Below are positions 1-39,587 of a stretch of DNA of 39,587 nucleotides, in pieces. Origin of the DNA: a virus; the IMG/VR virus record IMGVR_UViG_3300021438_000033, positions 1 to 39,587 of that record. One strand, given 5' to 3'. The notes beneath the pieces are model-generated. The model worked only from the letters and a program-made list of their open reading frames with translations, was not told the DNA's origin and ran no database searches. Position numbers and translations under genes: made by a program. Every line of letters begins with the position of its first letter. Within the stretch, counting starts at the first letter, position 1.

Positions 1-428
1 TGAGTCGGAGTGCCGGTCAGCTGACCAGGAGTACCAACAAGGTTGTAAACATTCAGGAACTGCTGAAGACCGTCATAATCGATCTTATTCGCAACAGCCG
101 CTACAGCAGGCTTGATGAAACGATCAGAGAAGTCGCTGATGTTCATCGTGAGATCCTGGGTCGTAAACGCCATGTCTACGCCGAACTGGGTTCCCAGAGT
201 CAGCGGTACATAGGTTTCAACAGAGGATTCAACCTGAAGCGCAGGGCCAGTACGACCGACATAACGCGGGGGTTTACGCAGATTGATAGTCGTACCAATC
301 TTTGCACCTTCGATTGCGAACTTATCGTCATACTGACGGCTAACTGCACGAGTAAATACCAACTGGTTGGTAAGTACGCGCAGAGCTTCGTTCGTAATCA
401 TACTAATAGTAAGCAACTGATTGCTCAT
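1..428 (-). CDS. Major coat protein, P22 gp5-like, intronless allele (3' end cut by window edge)
   Basis: First 142 codons of a P22-type (HK97-fold) major capsid protein that continues past the left edge. It starts MSNQLLTISMITNEALRVLT and is nearly identical in protein to the start of the spliced coat gene at the right end of the window. Near the edge it reads QLTGTPTQ where the other copy reads QLTNTVTPPTQ, so the two are real alleles and not a sequencing error. The start has a GAGG ribosome site about 8 nt upstream. The codons that flank the intron in the other copy are uninterrupted here (insertion point between bases 297 and 298). The simplest reading is that this end and the right end are the same locus from two strains, joined when a circular genome was assembled. 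Confidence 0.9.
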   Translation of the reverse strand, partial: MSNQLLTISMITNEALRVLTNQLVFTRAVSRQYDDKFAIEGAKIGTTINLRKPPRYVGRTGPALQVESSVETYVPLTLGTQFGVDMAFTTQDLTMNISDFSDRFIKPAVAAVANKIDYDGLQQFLNVYNLVGTPGQLTGTPT

Positions 429-481: not shown

Positions 482-515
482 TTCAGATAGGAGCCTATCC
501 CTCGAATGATCTGAA
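482..515 (-). promoter_or_regulatory. Alternative hairpins in the coat leader
   Basis: The coat leader can form a 7-bp outer stem (TTCAGAT 482-488 with ATCTGAA 509-515) or an inner hairpin GATAGG/CCTATC (486-491 with 494-499). The two share bases 486-488, so they exclude each other in part. It lies between the predicted promoter and the coat start. A role in coat translation or mRNA stability is inference only. Confidence 0.4.
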
Positions 516-560: not shown

Positions 561-588
561 TTGATAACATAGTATTATTATTTGTCAA
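561..588 (-). promoter_or_regulatory. Sigma70-like promoter for the coat gene
   Basis: On the minus strand a perfect TTGACA (bases 588-583) is followed after 16 nt by TATCAA (566-561). It lies just downstream of a strong terminator and upstream of the coat start, as expected for an extra promoter that boosts capsid production. The predicted start near 554 gives a leader of about 125 nt. The -10 matches consensus at 4 of 6 bases. Confidence 0.55.
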
Positions 589-592
589 ACAT

Positions 593-675: not shown

Positions 676-751
676 TGGAGCTAACGAAAGGAATTGAACC
701 CTCAACCGGCGCATTACAAGTGCGCTGCTCTACCTATTGAGCTACGTTAGC
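676..751 (-). tRNA. tRNA-Thr (anticodon TGT)
   Basis: A 76-nt cloverleaf. The acceptor stem is GCTAACG/CGTTAGC, the D arm contains AGCTCAATAGGTAGAGC, and the anticodon loop CTTGTAA lies between GCGCA and TGCGC. The T arm has GGTTCAATTCC, and the discriminator T is followed by an encoded CCA. The anticodon TGT reads threonine ACA-type codons. It lies between scaffold and coat in the late transcript. The stop codon of the scaffold gene (747-749) falls inside the acceptor stem, so RNase P cleavage of the transcript would cut at the end of the scaffold message. No integrase is present, so an attachment-site role is unlikely. Confidence 0.97.
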
Positions 752-11337: not shown

Positions 11338-12018
11338 ATGGCAATAAATCTCAAGTCCACTAAAGGAGTGGCTACAGATGGCGGTGTTAAAGTCCTTGTC
11401 TATGGCGGTGCTGGCGCTGGTAAAACTTCCCTCATTGGAACGCTTCCAGATCCAATTATCATTTCTGCTGAAGCTGGCTTATTGTCGCTGGCTGATCTTG
11501 ACATTCCATACATTGAGGTTACGGATATGGCTTCCTTGCGCGAAGCGTATAGCTTTGTCGCATCTAGCAAAGACGCTGAACGATTTAGATCAGTGGCAAT
11601 TGACTCTATATCCGAAATCGCAGAAGTCGTACTTAATTCCGAAAAGAAGCAAACCAAAGATCCGCGTCAAGCCTACGGTGCGCTACAGGAGCAGATGACT
11701 GATCTGATTCGCGCATTTCGTGATTTGTCTGGAAAAAATGTCTATATGTCAGCCAAGATGGAAAAAGTGCAAGACGAATCTGGACGCATTTTGTATGGAC
11801 CATCTATGCCGGGTAACAAGCTTGCACAGATGCTTCCATACTTCTTTGACGAAGTGCTTGCATTGCGCGTAGAAAAAGATGACGAAGGAAAGTCACAACG
11901 CGCTTTGATGTGCGACTCTGATGGCCTATGGTCAGCTAAGGACCGCTCTGGAAAGCTGGATGCTTGGGAAATGGCTGATCTATCTTTTATCTTTAACAAA
12001 ATAGCAGGTAACAAATGA
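11338..12018 (+). CDS. Sak4-like AAA/RecA-type ATPase (phage recombination)
   Basis: A 226-residue ATPase of the phage AAA_24 / Sak4 group. Walker A GGAGAGKT is at 23-30, IIISAEAGLLSL follows, and the Walker B-like RSVAIDSISEI lies near 84-94. Proteins of this type act in single-strand annealing recombination, typically with an SSB-like partner. Here a DUF669 protein lies three genes downstream and RusA is in the facing operon. It is the first gene of the rightward unit, with ribosome site GGAGTAAG. Confidence 0.85.
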   Translation: MAINLKSTKGVATDGGVKVLVYGGAGAGKTSLIGTLPDPIIISAEAGLLSLADLDIPYIEVTDMASLREAYSFVASSKDAERFRSVAIDSISEIAEVVLNSEKKQTKDPRQAYGALQEQMTDLIRAFRDLSGKNVYMSAKMEKVQDESGRILYGPSMPGNKLAQMLPYFFDEVLALRVEKDDEGKSQRALMCDSDGLWSAKDRSGKLDAWEMADLSFIFNKIAGNK

Positions 12019-12212
12019 AACTTGTAATCATTGACAATTCTGGTGCTGAACATGACCTTGATACCGTTATCCTTGGCATTGCTGGCGATATACATAGGCT
12101 TAACCAGCGATTGATTCGCGTAGAAACTGAACTTGGCATTAGCTATCAGGATGTTGAGGCTGAAGCAATTGCAGACACAGAGGAAGAAAATGGATCTGAA
12201 GAAGCTGTCTGA
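12015..12212 (+). CDS. Small acidic hypothetical protein
   Basis: A 65-residue protein, MKLVIIDNSGAEHDLDTVIL then a helix (IHRLNQRLIRVETELGI) and a strongly acidic C-terminus. It overlaps the ATPase stop by 4 nt. No family is recognised. Confidence 0.65.
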   Translation: MKLVIIDNSGAEHDLDTVILGIAGDIHRLNQRLIRVETELGISYQDVEAEAIADTEEENGSEEAV

Positions 12213-12573
12213 GCAATGGCTAGAAGCAAAGACATTAGAACGTGATGCAGCAGAGCGACGCAGAGTTATCGAAGATCAGATGCGTCAATGCTTGAAGATT
12301 GAAGATAGCGAAGAAGGCACTGTGACTAGCTTGATTGGCCCATATAAGATCAAAGCTGCATGCCGAGTCAACCGCAAGATTGATCCAGAAAAGTTTCTGA
12401 TGCTTGCAAATGACGCTAAGATTGAAGTTCAGGACTTTACGCGCTGGAAATGCGAACTAGTGATGTCTGCATGGAAAAAACAACCAGAGTATGTACAGCA
12501 AGTATTGTCACGCGCAATCACTGCTGAACCCGGTAGAGCTACGTTTACTGTTGAAACAATTGATAAGGAGTAA
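12190..12573 (+). CDS. Hypothetical phage protein of the recombination operon
   Basis: A 127-residue protein; I chose the ATG at 12190 (GAGGAAG upstream, overlapping the previous gene by 23 nt) instead of an upstream start at 12133, which would overlap it by 80 nt. A charged N-terminal helix (LEAKTLERDAAERRRVIEDQM) is followed by a beta-rich half (GPYKIKAACRVNRKIDPEKF). It resembles small phage proteins found beside SSB-like genes, but I cannot assign a function. Confidence 0.7.
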   Translation: MDLKKLSEQWLEAKTLERDAAERRRVIEDQMRQCLKIEDSEEGTVTSLIGPYKIKAACRVNRKIDPEKFLMLANDAKIEVQDFTRWKCELVMSAWKKQPEYVQQVLSRAITAEPGRATFTVETIDKE

Positions 12574-12578
12574 GAACA

Positions 12579-13031
12579 ATGCGTTTAGATGAAGTTTTCA
12601 CACTTGATTCCGTACCAGCACAGACGAACAGCTATGAAGCGCTTCCTGCTGGTATGTATGAAGCAACGATTGCCAATGCCGAGATCAAAGACTCAAAGTC
12701 TGGCGGCAAGTACATCAATGTTCGTTACGACATTACTGGGCCAAGTCACGCTGGCCGTGTAGTGTTTGGAATGATTACGATTAATAACGCTAATCCCAAA
12801 GCTGAGGAAGTTGGCCGCCAGCAGCTTGGCTCACTGATTCAAGCCATTGGTCTTGATAAGCTTGCAGACACAGATCAGCTTATTGGCGGTCAGCTCATTA
12901 TTAAACTGACTGTAGAAAACTCTGAACAGTACGGAGAACAAAATCGAGTACAGGGCTTCAGAGCGGCTAATAAAGCATCTAAGCCAAGTGCTGCTACAAC
13001 CAACACGCCACCTTGGGCATCCAAGAAATAA
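12579..13031 (+). CDS. DUF669 family, SSB-like protein
   Basis: A 150-residue protein with the DUF669 pattern: LPAGMYEATIANAEIKDSKS, KYINVRYDITGPSHAGRVVF, RQQLGSLIQAIGL and a low-complexity tail ending PPWASKK. DUF669 proteins are thought to bind single-stranded DNA in phage replication and recombination operons. Pairing with the Sak4-like ATPase in the same operon supports this. Ribosome site AAGGAGTAAG lies 5 nt from the ATG. Confidence 0.82.
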   Translation: MRLDEVFTLDSVPAQTNSYEALPAGMYEATIANAEIKDSKSGGKYINVRYDITGPSHAGRVVFGMITINNANPKAEEVGRQQLGSLIQAIGLDKLADTDQLIGGQLIIKLTVENSEQYGEQNRVQGFRAANKASKPSAATTNTPPWASKK

Positions 13032-13052
13032 GTTTCCACTCCCAGTGCTTAC

Positions 13053-13079
13053 GCCCACAAGGATGTGGGCATTTTTTTT
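13053..13079 (+). terminator. Intrinsic terminator inside the rightward operon
   Basis: GCCCACA (13053-13059) and TGTGGGC (13064-13070) form a perfect 7-bp stem with AGGA loop, followed by A and eight T. It lies between the DUF669 gene and the Cas4-like nuclease, and the ribosome site of the latter begins right after the T tract. Downstream genes therefore need readthrough, antitermination or another promoter. Confidence 0.93.
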
Positions 13080-13089
13080 GGAGTAAGTC

Positions 13090-14136
13090 ATGGCTACAAT
13101 GCCAGTATCAAAAAATTACATTGCTGAACAGATAGATATTGCACATGAGAAGAAAGCAGACGGATTCCGTGAACATCTTGGCGTTTCTCTTCTTGGTCAT
13201 TCCTGTGATCGTTATCTCTGGCTTTCTTTCCGTTGGGCTATTGCTAGTGCGTTTACTGGCAGGATGCTTAGATTGTTTCGCCGTGGCCATCTTGAGGAGG
13301 AGACAGTCATAGCAGACCTGAAGCTCATAGGATGCGCTCTTAATGAACGACAAACCCGCGTAGACTTTGGCGCATTTGTATCTGGCAGTTGTGACGGGAT
13401 TATCACATCTGGTCTACCGGGATATGAGAAGCACAAGGTAGTGCTGGAGATTAAGACACATTCAAAGAAGTCATTCGACGAACTCTGCAAGAAAGGCGTA
13501 GCGCTTGCAAAGGAACAGCATTACATCCAGATGCAGGGCTACATGCTTGGTCTTGGCGCTGAGTTAGCGCTCTATTATGCAGTCTGCAAAGACGATGACC
13601 GCATACATACAGAGATCATCCATCTAGACAGACAGTTAGCCGAAAAATACGTCAATCGCGGTAAGAAGATTGCCATGTCTGATTACATGCCAGAGCCATT
13701 GAGCGCTGATCCATCATGGTATCAGTGCAAGATGTGCAGCTTTTATGATTTCTGCCATGAAACAAAGCTAACGCAGCAGATCAATTGCCGTACATGCGTC
13801 CTGTCTACAGCTAACGCTGATAGCACGTTTACTTGCTCTAAGTACGACAACTATAAGATTGAGCCTGAGTACCAGCGCACTGGCTGTGAAGGTCATGTCT
13901 TGCATCCAGACTTAGTGCCATGGGAGCGCATGGAATCAGATAGCTTGCATGAAGCTGTCTACATCATAGATGGTCAGCCAGTACGCAATGGTGAGCCTGA
14001 TGAGCGTGTATACAGGTCATCTGAGATTATCGCTAACCCAGTAGCTTGTGCGCATCCTGATGAGACTACAGAGGCGTTGCGTGTGGTGTTTGATGCAAAA
14101 TTGGTGAATTGTGGTAGTCAAGAGCCTAAGTTTTGA
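13090..14136 (+). CDS. Cas4-like PD-(D/E)XK nuclease with Fe-S cluster motif
   Basis: A 348-residue nuclease. The core shows Glu in RRGHLEEE (69-71), Asp102 in GSCDGII, then VVLEIKTH with Glu120 and Lys122, and QHYIQMQGYMLGL near 143-155: the RecB/Cas4 motifs in order. Cys40 plus Cys213, Cys216 and Cys222 (CKMCSFYDFC) match the four ligands of the 4Fe-4S clasp in Cas4 and AddB. A second Cys group follows (CRTC at 233-236, Cys249). It probably supplies single-stranded DNA for the Sak4-like and DUF669 proteins. No CRISPR is present. Confidence 0.88.
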   Translation: MATMPVSKNYIAEQIDIAHEKKADGFREHLGVSLLGHSCDRYLWLSFRWAIASAFTGRMLRLFRRGHLEEETVIADLKLIGCALNERQTRVDFGAFVSGSCDGIITSGLPGYEKHKVVLEIKTHSKKSFDELCKKGVALAKEQHYIQMQGYMLGLGAELALYYAVCKDDDRIHTEIIHLDRQLAEKYVNRGKKIAMSDYMPEPLSADPSWYQCKMCSFYDFCHETKLTQQINCRTCVLSTANADSTFTCSKYDNYKIEPEYQRTGCEGHVLHPDLVPWERMESDSLHEAVYIIDGQPVRNGEPDERVYRSSEIIANPVACAHPDETTEALRVVFDAKLVNCGSQEPKF

Positions 14137-17464: not shown

Positions 17465-17625
17465 ACAGCCATGAAACAGCCCTAGAAGAACTTCAAATGC
17501 TGCGCGCCTCTTTGCAAGTAGTCTCTTTTGCTTACATGAAAGATGCTCGATTGGTCGGCTCCGCTATAGCGTATTTAGCAATGTTGGAAGACTTGCTTAA
17601 AGAACGGCAAAAGGGGGAAAAATGA
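17461..17625 (+). CDS. Small helical hypothetical protein
   Basis: A 54-residue protein starting at the ATG that overlaps the previous stop (ATGA). It is a near-continuous helix (ALEELQMLRASLQVV, IAYLAMLEDLLKERQ). Upstream in-frame starts would overlap the previous gene heavily and are not used. Function unknown. Confidence 0.6.
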   Translation: MNSHETALEELQMLRASLQVVSFAYMKDARLVGSAIAYLAMLEDLLKERQKGEK

Positions 17626-18122
17626 GCGACAAAGAACTTACCCAGCTGGAATTACAAGAATGCCTTCGTTACGAGGAAGGTACAGGGTTCTTTTTCTGGA
17701 TTAAAAGAAACAGTAAACGCATAAAAGTTGGGGATAAAGCTGGAACAAGACCAAATTGTGATGGGTACGCAGAAATAATGGTGAACAATGTTTTGTACAA
17801 GGCTCATCGTTTGGCTTGGTTATATGTGTATGGCGAATGGCCTCAGAGTCAAATAGATCACATTAATGGCGATAGGTTCGACAACCGTATTGCAAATCTG
17901 CGGGACGCTACACCAAAGGAAAATTCTTACAATCGCATACGAGCAAGCAAAAATAACAAAACGTCTTTACTGGGCGTGGTGACAAAGCCGAACGGAACTT
18001 TTTACGCTGAGATTAGGGTAGAGAAAAAGAAGTTTCATCTAGGATCTTTCCCCTCCGCAGAGTTAGCGCATCAAGCATATCTTGAAGCCAAAGAAAAATT
18101 GCATACGATGGAGGCGGTATGA
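17622..18122 (+). CDS. HNH endonuclease with AP2 DNA-binding domain
   Basis: A 166-residue homing-type nuclease. The HNH core runs from AHRLAWLYVYGEWPQSQIDH to NPLR-like NRIANLRDATPKENSYN (about 61-104), with Asp79, His80 and the Asn residues at 88, 92 and 101. The C-terminal AP2-like domain is at about 115-160 (LLGVVTKPNGTFYAEIRV, FHLGSFPSAELAHQAY). It sits between small accessory genes, with ATGA overlaps on both sides. Free-standing enzymes of this kind spread by cutting related phages that lack them. Confidence 0.93.
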   Translation: MSDKELTQLELQECLRYEEGTGFFFWIKRNSKRIKVGDKAGTRPNCDGYAEIMVNNVLYKAHRLAWLYVYGEWPQSQIDHINGDRFDNRIANLRDATPKENSYNRIRASKNNKTSLLGVVTKPNGTFYAEIRVEKKKFHLGSFPSAELAHQAYLEAKEKLHTMEAV

Positions 18123-38008: not shown

Positions 38009-39576
38009 TTAACCAGTTACGCGGGTAGCGAGTTCGGGATAGATGGTTGACCAGCCGTACAGTACGTCAAGTCGGCAAGGCAGCTGATCGCTGTTAATGT
38101 CGTACTGACGAACAAGACGGATAGAAACGCCATCTGCTGATGCGCGTCCAGCCATGTCAACACCCTGCGGCAGAATGAGATCCGCTGTGCCGAAAGCAAA
38201 AGCATCACGATGGAATGCAATAGCGTTCGGGTAAGAAGAACCATTGGAGCCAGAGATAACGGAAGCGTTACCACTCGGGATCGTACCGGTTGTGCTAGTT
38301 ACGTTCTGGAACTGACCAGAGAATACCGGAGTCGGGAACACAGAAAGGGTCTGTGAAGAACCAGTACCGGTAACGCCAGCAGTAAGAACGAAGTTACGCA
38401 GTGCGCCAGTAGACTGACGGTTCTGCGGGTTGACTGCATATACACCAGGAATGGTGAAAACAGTACCCTGAGTCAGCGTCTTGCCAGAGCTAATCGTTGC
38501 AGTAAGAGAGAATGCAGTCTGAGCATTCGTCTGAACTGAACCACCAGCCTGTGCAGCAACTGCCAAAGTGTCAGTACCAACAATGAACGTACCAGAAGTG
38601 AAGTTGCCTACGTTCTGATCCATTGCCATATTGAAGCCGAGAGTATTGTCTCCAAGCGCACCTTTTTCAAAGATACGAGAGATAGTACCCTGCGGATTGA
38701 ACAGGTTAGTAAGACCAGAAACGATGCCAACTTCCACTGTCGGATCGACAACAAAGTGACGATCTTCGTCAACCGGAGCCGCTTCCTGATTCAGACGAGC
38801 GCGAGCAGCAAGGATTGCAGCCGTAGACTGAGCCTGAGTCGGAGGAGTAACGGTATTGGTCAACTGACCAGGAGTACCAACAAGGTTGTAGACGTTAAGG
38901 AACTGCTGGAGACCGTCATAGTCGATCTTATTCGCAACAGCCGCTACAGCAGGCTTGATGAAACGATCAGAGAAATCGCTGATGTTCATCGTGAGATCCT
39001 GGGTCGTAAACGCCATGTCTACGCCGAACTGTGTTCCAAGCGTCAGCGGTACATACGTTTCAACAGAGGATTCAACCTGAAGCGCAGGGCCGGTACGACC
39101 GACATAACGCGGGGGCTTACGCAGATTGATTGTGGTGCCGCATTTTCTTATGACTAGCTTTTTAATTTCCTAGTCCTAGCCTTTTCAAGCTAGATGAGAC
39201 TATATCTTCATCCCAGTAGGATGCAGGGCACTCTTGGAACTTCATCGACCGTTCTGGCCGGTATGTTCTAGTCGTTGAACCTTCAACTCATTCCTGAGTC
39301 GCTTGGCTGCTGATTTCCCAATCCTAAAACTTTTCAGTCCTTCACGCTTGTCTTTGCAGACTACGTTGTGGCATTTAGGCTCTAAGGGAGTTCCAGCAAT
39401 TCACCCTGTTTGCATCTAAACCTTACGGCTTAGAGAGACCAGTTGATCTTTGCACCTTCGATTGCGAACTTATCGTCATACTGACGAGAAACCGCACGAG
39501 TAAATACCAACTGGTTGGTAAGTACGCGCAGAGCTTCGTTCGTAATCATACTAATAGTAAGCAACTGATTGCTCAT
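38009..39576 (-). CDS. Major coat protein, P22 gp5-like, split by a group I intron
   Basis: Two exons: 39446-39576 (131 nt) and 38009-39140 (1132 nt). Joined, they give 420 residues and stop, close to the 430 of P22 coat. The splice falls in the Ile44 codon after its second base and restores GAKIGTTIN, the same as the uninterrupted copy at the left end. Without splicing, translation would stop in the intron after about six codons. The protein has P22 coat features: N-arm, AFTTQDLTMNISDFSDRFIK in the core and LDVLYGWSTIYPELATRVTG at the end. Ribosome site AGGT precedes the ATG; the promoter would be the one seen at the left end. Confidence 0.93.
39141..39445 (-). other. Group I intron (class IA-like), 305 nt, no ORF
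   Basis: The 5' exon ends in U and the intron ends in G, as required. P1 pairs exon AAAGAU with GUCUCU (one mismatch, U-G at the splice site), and CUG before it can pair with exon CGG (P10). P2 is CUAAGCC-GUAA-GGUUUAG. P, Q, R and S are present: AATTGCTGGAAC (39390-39401), AAATCAGCAGCC start at 39316, GTTCAACGACTAGA (39267-39280) and AAGATATAGTCT (39197-39208). P3 is CAGGG/CCCUG, P7 GACUA/UAGUC, P8 CAUCC/GGAUG, with two P9-type hairpins at the end. Extra bases between P7 and P3 suggest class IA. No endonuclease gene is inside. Confidence 0.97.
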
Positions 39577-39587
39577 AGTGATTACCT

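Follow-up and report, generated by a model that had tools for sequence, protein, structure and literature searches.

Intron-plus and intron-minus alleles of the coat gene in a P22-like phage record, and probable spread of the intron by collaborative homing

One virus record carries two versions of the start of a coat gene, one of them interrupted by a predicted group I intron and the other intron-free. We consider it probable that the record represents two co-occurring P22-like strains that differ by this endonuclease-less, IA-like intron, and that the intron spreads by collaborative (trans) homing. The DNA analyzed, here called the window, is a 39,587-base IMG/VR virus contig classed as linear. 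Its gene content is that of a P22-like podovirus, with terminase, portal, scaffold, and coat genes on the minus strand and a gene for a head-closure protein. The window also contains phage genes of the Sak4, SSB, and Cas4 types, which could provide the repair machinery for homing. The features discussed below are listed in Table 1.

Table 1. Positions of coat-gene, intron, and recombination features in the window
Feature	Positions	Strand	Basis
Intron-free coat allele, 5' 142 codons; insertion point between 297 and 298	1..428	-	Alignment to 38836-39587
Empty endonuclease slot, approximate	583..589	-	Window gap compared with filled relatives
Recombination genes: Sak4-like annealing protein, ssDNA-binding protein (SSB), Cas4-type exonuclease	11338..14136	+	PHROG matches
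Coat gene exon 2, intron-plus allele, P22 coat protein family, 420 aa after splicing	38009..39140	-	PF11651 E = 5e-24; spliced ORF
Right terminal copy of coat 5' region, overlaps 1-439	38836..39587		Last 94 nt identical to 346-439
Predicted group I intron, 305 nt, without ORF, in codon 44 (AT^C)	39141..39445	-	RF00028; intron-free flanks
Coat gene exon 1, intron-plus allele, codons 1-44, phase 2	39446..39576	-	

Alignment of positions 1-439 with 38836-39587 contained a single large gap, which corresponds to the intron; the left end therefore carries the coat 5' region without the intron, as an earlier note on this DNA had stated. At 130 comparable codons there were 18 differences, all silent, and the encoded protein was identical to that of the spliced intron-plus allele. 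The earlier description of the two copies as very similar thus holds for the protein, in which no amino acid is changed, but not for silent sites, at which dS is about 0.26. Because of this silent divergence, the alleles appear to belong to distinct related strains rather than to near-isogenic variants. In the relatives (L003, L004, L006, L047, and others), the terminase, portal, and scaffold genes are followed by a single coat gene, whose start matches the left end of the window and whose body matches the right end. Because this one gene bridges both ends, the window is best read as a genome-length circle opened inside the coat gene, with ends that are two strain alleles and not tandem genes. 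The synteny thus favors the earlier proposal of strain variation at one locus, and comparison of related genomes for presence or absence of the intron turned up both forms.

Two other origins of the terminal copies were weighed against this arrangement. The contig could be a chimera that combines the intron-bearing coat gene of one phage species with another species' genome, in which case no population polymorphism is implied. The dS value, an indel that separates the alleles near codon 140, and an exactly shared segment of only 94 nt at the right end all fit such a joining; however, the gene order is correct across both ends in the relatives, and the two copies agree exactly in their first 27 codons and in the leader adjoining the start codon, so that we regard a chimera as improbable. 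Tandem coat genes in one genome, one of them with an intron, would account for the presence of both copies on one contig, but the copies lie at opposite termini of the contig, the left-hand copy is truncated, and every relative has a single coat gene here. We give this last arrangement hardly any credence.

Several other features of the coat region were observed. A conserved hairpin lies in the coat mRNA leader (window 482-515, minus strand), about 55 nt ahead of the start codon. In 23 distinct relatives it has the loop ATTCGAGGGATNGGCTCC and a 7-bp stem that covaries; 88% of cells were paired compared with 78% after shuffling, and there were 25 double changes compared with 7. This hairpin had no Rfam match and is possibly a regulator of coat translation. 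A small acidic ORF adjoins the coat gene in L002 (4617-4781), L005, L047, and L087, and resembles positions 12015-12145 in the early region of the window (74% DNA identity over 131 nt for L002).

All of codons 44-47, at the insertion point, differ between the alleles (ATT GGT ACG ACT in the intron-minus allele and ATC GGC ACC ACA in the intron-plus allele), and the alleles do not differ at all in the 41 nt on the 5' side of the insertion. Both the silent four-codon cluster and the roughly 40 identical bases on the 5' exon side had been pointed out in the earlier note, and both were confirmed. The chance of changes in all of codons 44-47 is low (P = 0.00025), that of a run of at least four anywhere is higher (P = 0.03), and among 97 pairs of relatives with similar divergence, 15 had a run of at least four somewhere and 4 had one at codons 44-47. 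The cluster is real and well placed, yet clusters this large are not unusual in this gene. The ATC GGC ACC ACA version is the ordinary haplotype among close intron-free relatives (L002, L005, and L009); of 12 near relatives, only L011 shares the changes that the intron-minus allele has at codons 44 and 46. The cluster thus marks the intron-minus allele as the unusual one. Because the intron-plus codons are common in close intron-free relatives, the cluster does not by itself demonstrate co-conversion. Co-conversion and target-site escape had both been suggested as its origin; because the intron-plus haplotype is ordinary, the four silent changes cannot be taken for a co-conversion footprint of this insertion. 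The cluster may reflect escape of the target site in the intron-free allele, a short patch imported from an L011-like phage, or a rare haplotype that was replaced when the intron was acquired. Two further interpretations were dropped: that the four silent codons are a donor signature, because the same codons occur in intron-free relatives, and that codons 44-47 are needed for P10 pairing, because by inspection the intron-minus UGGU can pair with the ACUG of the guide region no less well than CGG does.

The inserted element is, as judged from its sequence, an IA-like group I intron. A full-length match to RF00028 (positions 1-253) scored 85.9 bits against a gathering threshold of 50, the conserved ribozyme core P3-P8 including P7 is present, and compensatory changes were found in 34 of 89 pairs across six homologues. 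Intron borders were set by the flanks of the intron-free allele and of relatives, which placed the 5' splice boundary at AAAGAU^, with the guide GUCUCU, and the 3' end at ...AAAATG^CGG. The U at the 5' exon end pairs with a guide G, as expected for a group I intron, and the intron ends in G. Predicted splicing restores the reading frame of the 420-aa coat protein, which is of the P22 type by its PF11651 match (85.3 bits against a cut-off of 24), and the intron would self-splice to leave an intact coat mRNA. No ORF of note was found in the 305-307 nt introns of the window and its relatives.

A survey of 80 coat loci and further pattern matches identified related introns in the same coat gene of five further contigs. 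Two lie at codon 44, like that of the window, to which they are 95% (L087) and 88% (L047) identical; the others lie, in window numbering, at codon 11 (L006, 95% identical), codon 8 (L086, 89%), and codon 10 (L079, 73%). All six introns follow GAU, are in phase 2, and have a guide that starts with GUC. Matches in named phage records were mostly to the generic intron core, with coat relatives below 60% identity, and a scan of genome contigs gave two intron-free relatives at about 50%, in a Pseudomonadota MAG. Two other elements were seen in passing. In a Manatee Spring podovirus (MW202674.1, L162 2501-4016), a distant coat gene is interrupted near codon 88; the insertion, about 250 nt long, is unrelated, resembles a group I intron by eye, and falls below the Rfam threshold. 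On the reverse strand at about 12640-12687 of L085, a contig without this coat gene, there is another kind of group I intron, whose core is similar and which is followed by a long ORF.

Imported exon sequence adjoins the intron in both L047 and L087. Codons 44-125 of these two coat genes, a downstream exon stretch of about 250 nt, are 91.5-96% identical to the window clade, against a background identity of 72-83% (in codons 231-420, about 83% for L047 and 74-77% for L087). On the 5' side of the intron, the match extends for only 26 nt in L047 and 8 nt in L087 before it fades. Among intron-free, endonuclease-free pairs of similar distance, a comparable pattern was found in only 3 of 192. These tracts are what intron transfer at the DNA level with one-sided co-conversion of the exon is expected to leave. 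Co-conversion of flanking exon is thus better displayed by these relatives than by the window's own four-codon cluster. One-sided conversion tracts are known for I-TevI, where they are biased to exon 1 (PMC2988022).

An ORF of 200-235 aa lies between the scaffold and coat genes in many relatives (L003, L004, L006, L012, L046, L047, L049, L066, L070, L079, L081, L086, and others). It has GIY-YIG residues, NUMOD3-like repeats, and an AP2-like C-terminus, and it matches PHROG 314 (homing endonuclease) with E values down to 2e-28; Y-V-Y, F-Y-x-G, R51, E91, and N107 are invariant in all ten aligned sequences. The best score with the Pfam GIY-YIG profile was 19.5 bits, below the cut-off of 22.6, and this profile serves as a check on the name and not as a defining feature. 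A predicted structural model matched the UvrC GIY-YIG domain with a Foldseek probability of 0.93, but with E = 0.35. By these characters, the ORF is a putative GIY-YIG homing endonuclease gene. A scan for the family gave 26 loci, and all but three weak matches adjoin this scaffold or coat gene.

The gene lies directly upstream of the coat gene in four of the five intron-bearing relatives (L006, L047, L079, and L086, but not L087), and at least eight relatives have the endonuclease gene and no intron. Intron and endonuclease were associated by Fisher tests (P = 0.015 for dereplicated loci and 0.014 for loci found by coat sequence only) that involve 4-5 intron loci and ignore shared ancestry. 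No match to the gene was found in the window, which ends at the start of the intron-plus strain's leader. The gap in the window matches L003, L006, and L233 up to about position 158 of the gap, ahead of their endonuclease gene, and L046 from about gap position 164 onward, after that gene. A tRNA-Thr gene (TGT, window 676-751) is located between the scaffold and coat genes, directly ahead of this slot.

Coat genes beside an endonuclease gene show divergence over codons 1-43, followed by an abrupt change to a match with endonuclease-free relatives. This identity step had a mean of 16 points, compared with 4 (P = 3e-5, uncorrected for relatedness). Because coat identity steps up after codons 1-43 beside the endonuclease gene, we infer that the enzyme cuts near codons 43-55, an interval adjoining the intron site in codon 44. 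A free-standing HNH_3 endonuclease ORF in the early region of the window (17622-18122; Pfam HNH_3, PHROG 99) was considered as the intron mobilizer and rejected: it is distant from the coat gene and has no observed tie to the intron.

Introns at the four sites have similar cores and different P1-P2 guide segments. The window and L006 introns, at different sites, differ at 12 of 43 positions in P1-P2 and at 3 of 262 elsewhere, with a maximum chi-square break after nt 36 (P = 2e-4); for the window and L087 introns, which share one site, the counts are 2 of 43 and 13 of 262, with no break (P = 0.93). The L086 intron has P3-P6 of the window type (1 of 134 positions differ), an L047-like P7.1 (3 of 56), and its own P1-P2 and P9. 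Because the guide segment differs between sites against a near-constant core, and because of the L086 mosaic, the introns appear to recombine with each other, the guide segment going with the site; exchange between introns at different sites is supported for this segment by the sequence comparisons. Guide pairing is good at codon 44 and reaches only 3-4 bp at the other three sites, and an intron's own site is the best or tied guide match only for the codon-44 introns. The idea that guide sequence alone dictates the site fails for three of the six introns (L006, L079, and L086), which have better matches elsewhere in the gene. As a tentative proposal, about which we have more doubt than confidence, the family may change site within the capsid gene (codons 8, 10, 11, and 44) by P1-P2 exchange, and persist by riding the conversion tract of the upstream GIY-YIG gene rather than by disrupting its target.

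By collaborative homing, the intron would spread at the DNA level from one coat gene to another, by way of break repair and general recombination, with flanking exon copied as well. The break would most likely be supplied in trans by the free-standing GIY-YIG gene just upstream of the coat gene, whose product would cut a naive coat gene early in the coding sequence. Repair from a coinfecting relative could then copy the endonuclease gene, the coat 5' end, or the intron with its downstream exon, and repair that spans the interval between the endonuclease gene and a cut near codons 43-55 would produce the divergence of codons 1-43 and the step that follows. In this way the endonuclease would move the intron. 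Several observations speak against homing in trans: neither the window nor L087 has a GIY-YIG gene, at least eight relatives carry that gene and no intron, an intron at codon 8, 10, or 11 would leave a target near codon 44 intact, and the four-codon cluster is not specific to intron-bearing alleles.

The two alleles could also be explained with a passive intron, carried along in ordinary phage recombination beside an endonuclease gene that is only a neighbor homing on its own. This phage encodes Sak4/Cas4-type recombination genes, intron-free alleles recombine too (the L005/L032 tract), and the elements are often found apart, L087 and the window being without the endonuclease and many endonuclease-bearing relatives without the intron. 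In both L047 and L087, however, the imported tracts start at the intron, and the intron is enriched beside the endonuclease gene; we therefore hold passive carriage to be unlikely, while giving it real weight. For the site changes only, an additional route is that the intron reverse-splices into coat mRNA, after which reverse transcription and recombination return it to DNA. Introns that change site are usually proposed to do so by reverse splicing, with support that is circumstantial only (PMC3984707, PMC1299323); this route would explain insertion at codons 8, 10, 11, and 44, in every case after GAU with a GUC guide, and the first arrival at each site may have occurred in this manner. As a general account of the site changes it seems rather unlikely to us, because of the better guide matches that L006, L079, and L086 have elsewhere in the gene, and because the guide and P2 of L006 changed together with the core unchanged, as in recombination between introns.

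Collaborative homing, our preferred reading, has been described in T7-like phages and cyanophages (Bonocora and Shub 2009; Zeng et al. 2009; via PMC3984707). The present system resembles those, as reviewed in PMC3984707, in having an endonuclease-less phage group I intron, an adjoining free-standing endonuclease gene, and a presumed shared target; it differs in the capsid gene as host, the GIY-YIG enzyme, and the occurrence of one intron family at four positions, and the target here is inferred. Phage ICP1 T5orf172 is likewise a free-standing gene of GIY-YIG type beside exon 1 of an intron-split packaging gene, although that gene (terminase) and the phage family are different, and the present case adds presence/absence alleles, flank mosaics, and several insertion sites (PMC10448857). 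MobE, which moves the phage T4 nrdB intron in trans, is also encoded outside the intron, but it is an HNH enzyme, and the nrdB intron keeps a defunct endonuclease gene (PMC2988022). Fungal rDNA group I introns include close relatives at different sites that share a short 5' exon motif; in contrast to them, the introns described here lie in a phage protein gene at sites within 9 to 108 nt of one another, and their guide segment differs against a near-constant core (PMC1299323). A partial coverage of the literature contained no report of capsid-gene introns with guide exchange, which is not proof of novelty.

It has long been asked how endonuclease-less group I introns persist and how they arrive at new sites, and direct evidence on either point is scarce (PMC3984707). 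In this clade there are intron-plus and intron-minus alleles, filled and empty endonuclease slots, and near-identical introns at several sites, so that both questions become testable with small clones. The major capsid gene emerges as a hot spot of selfish-element traffic, and this traffic complicates phage trees based on the capsid, because the first 45 codons and the next 80 can differ in history.
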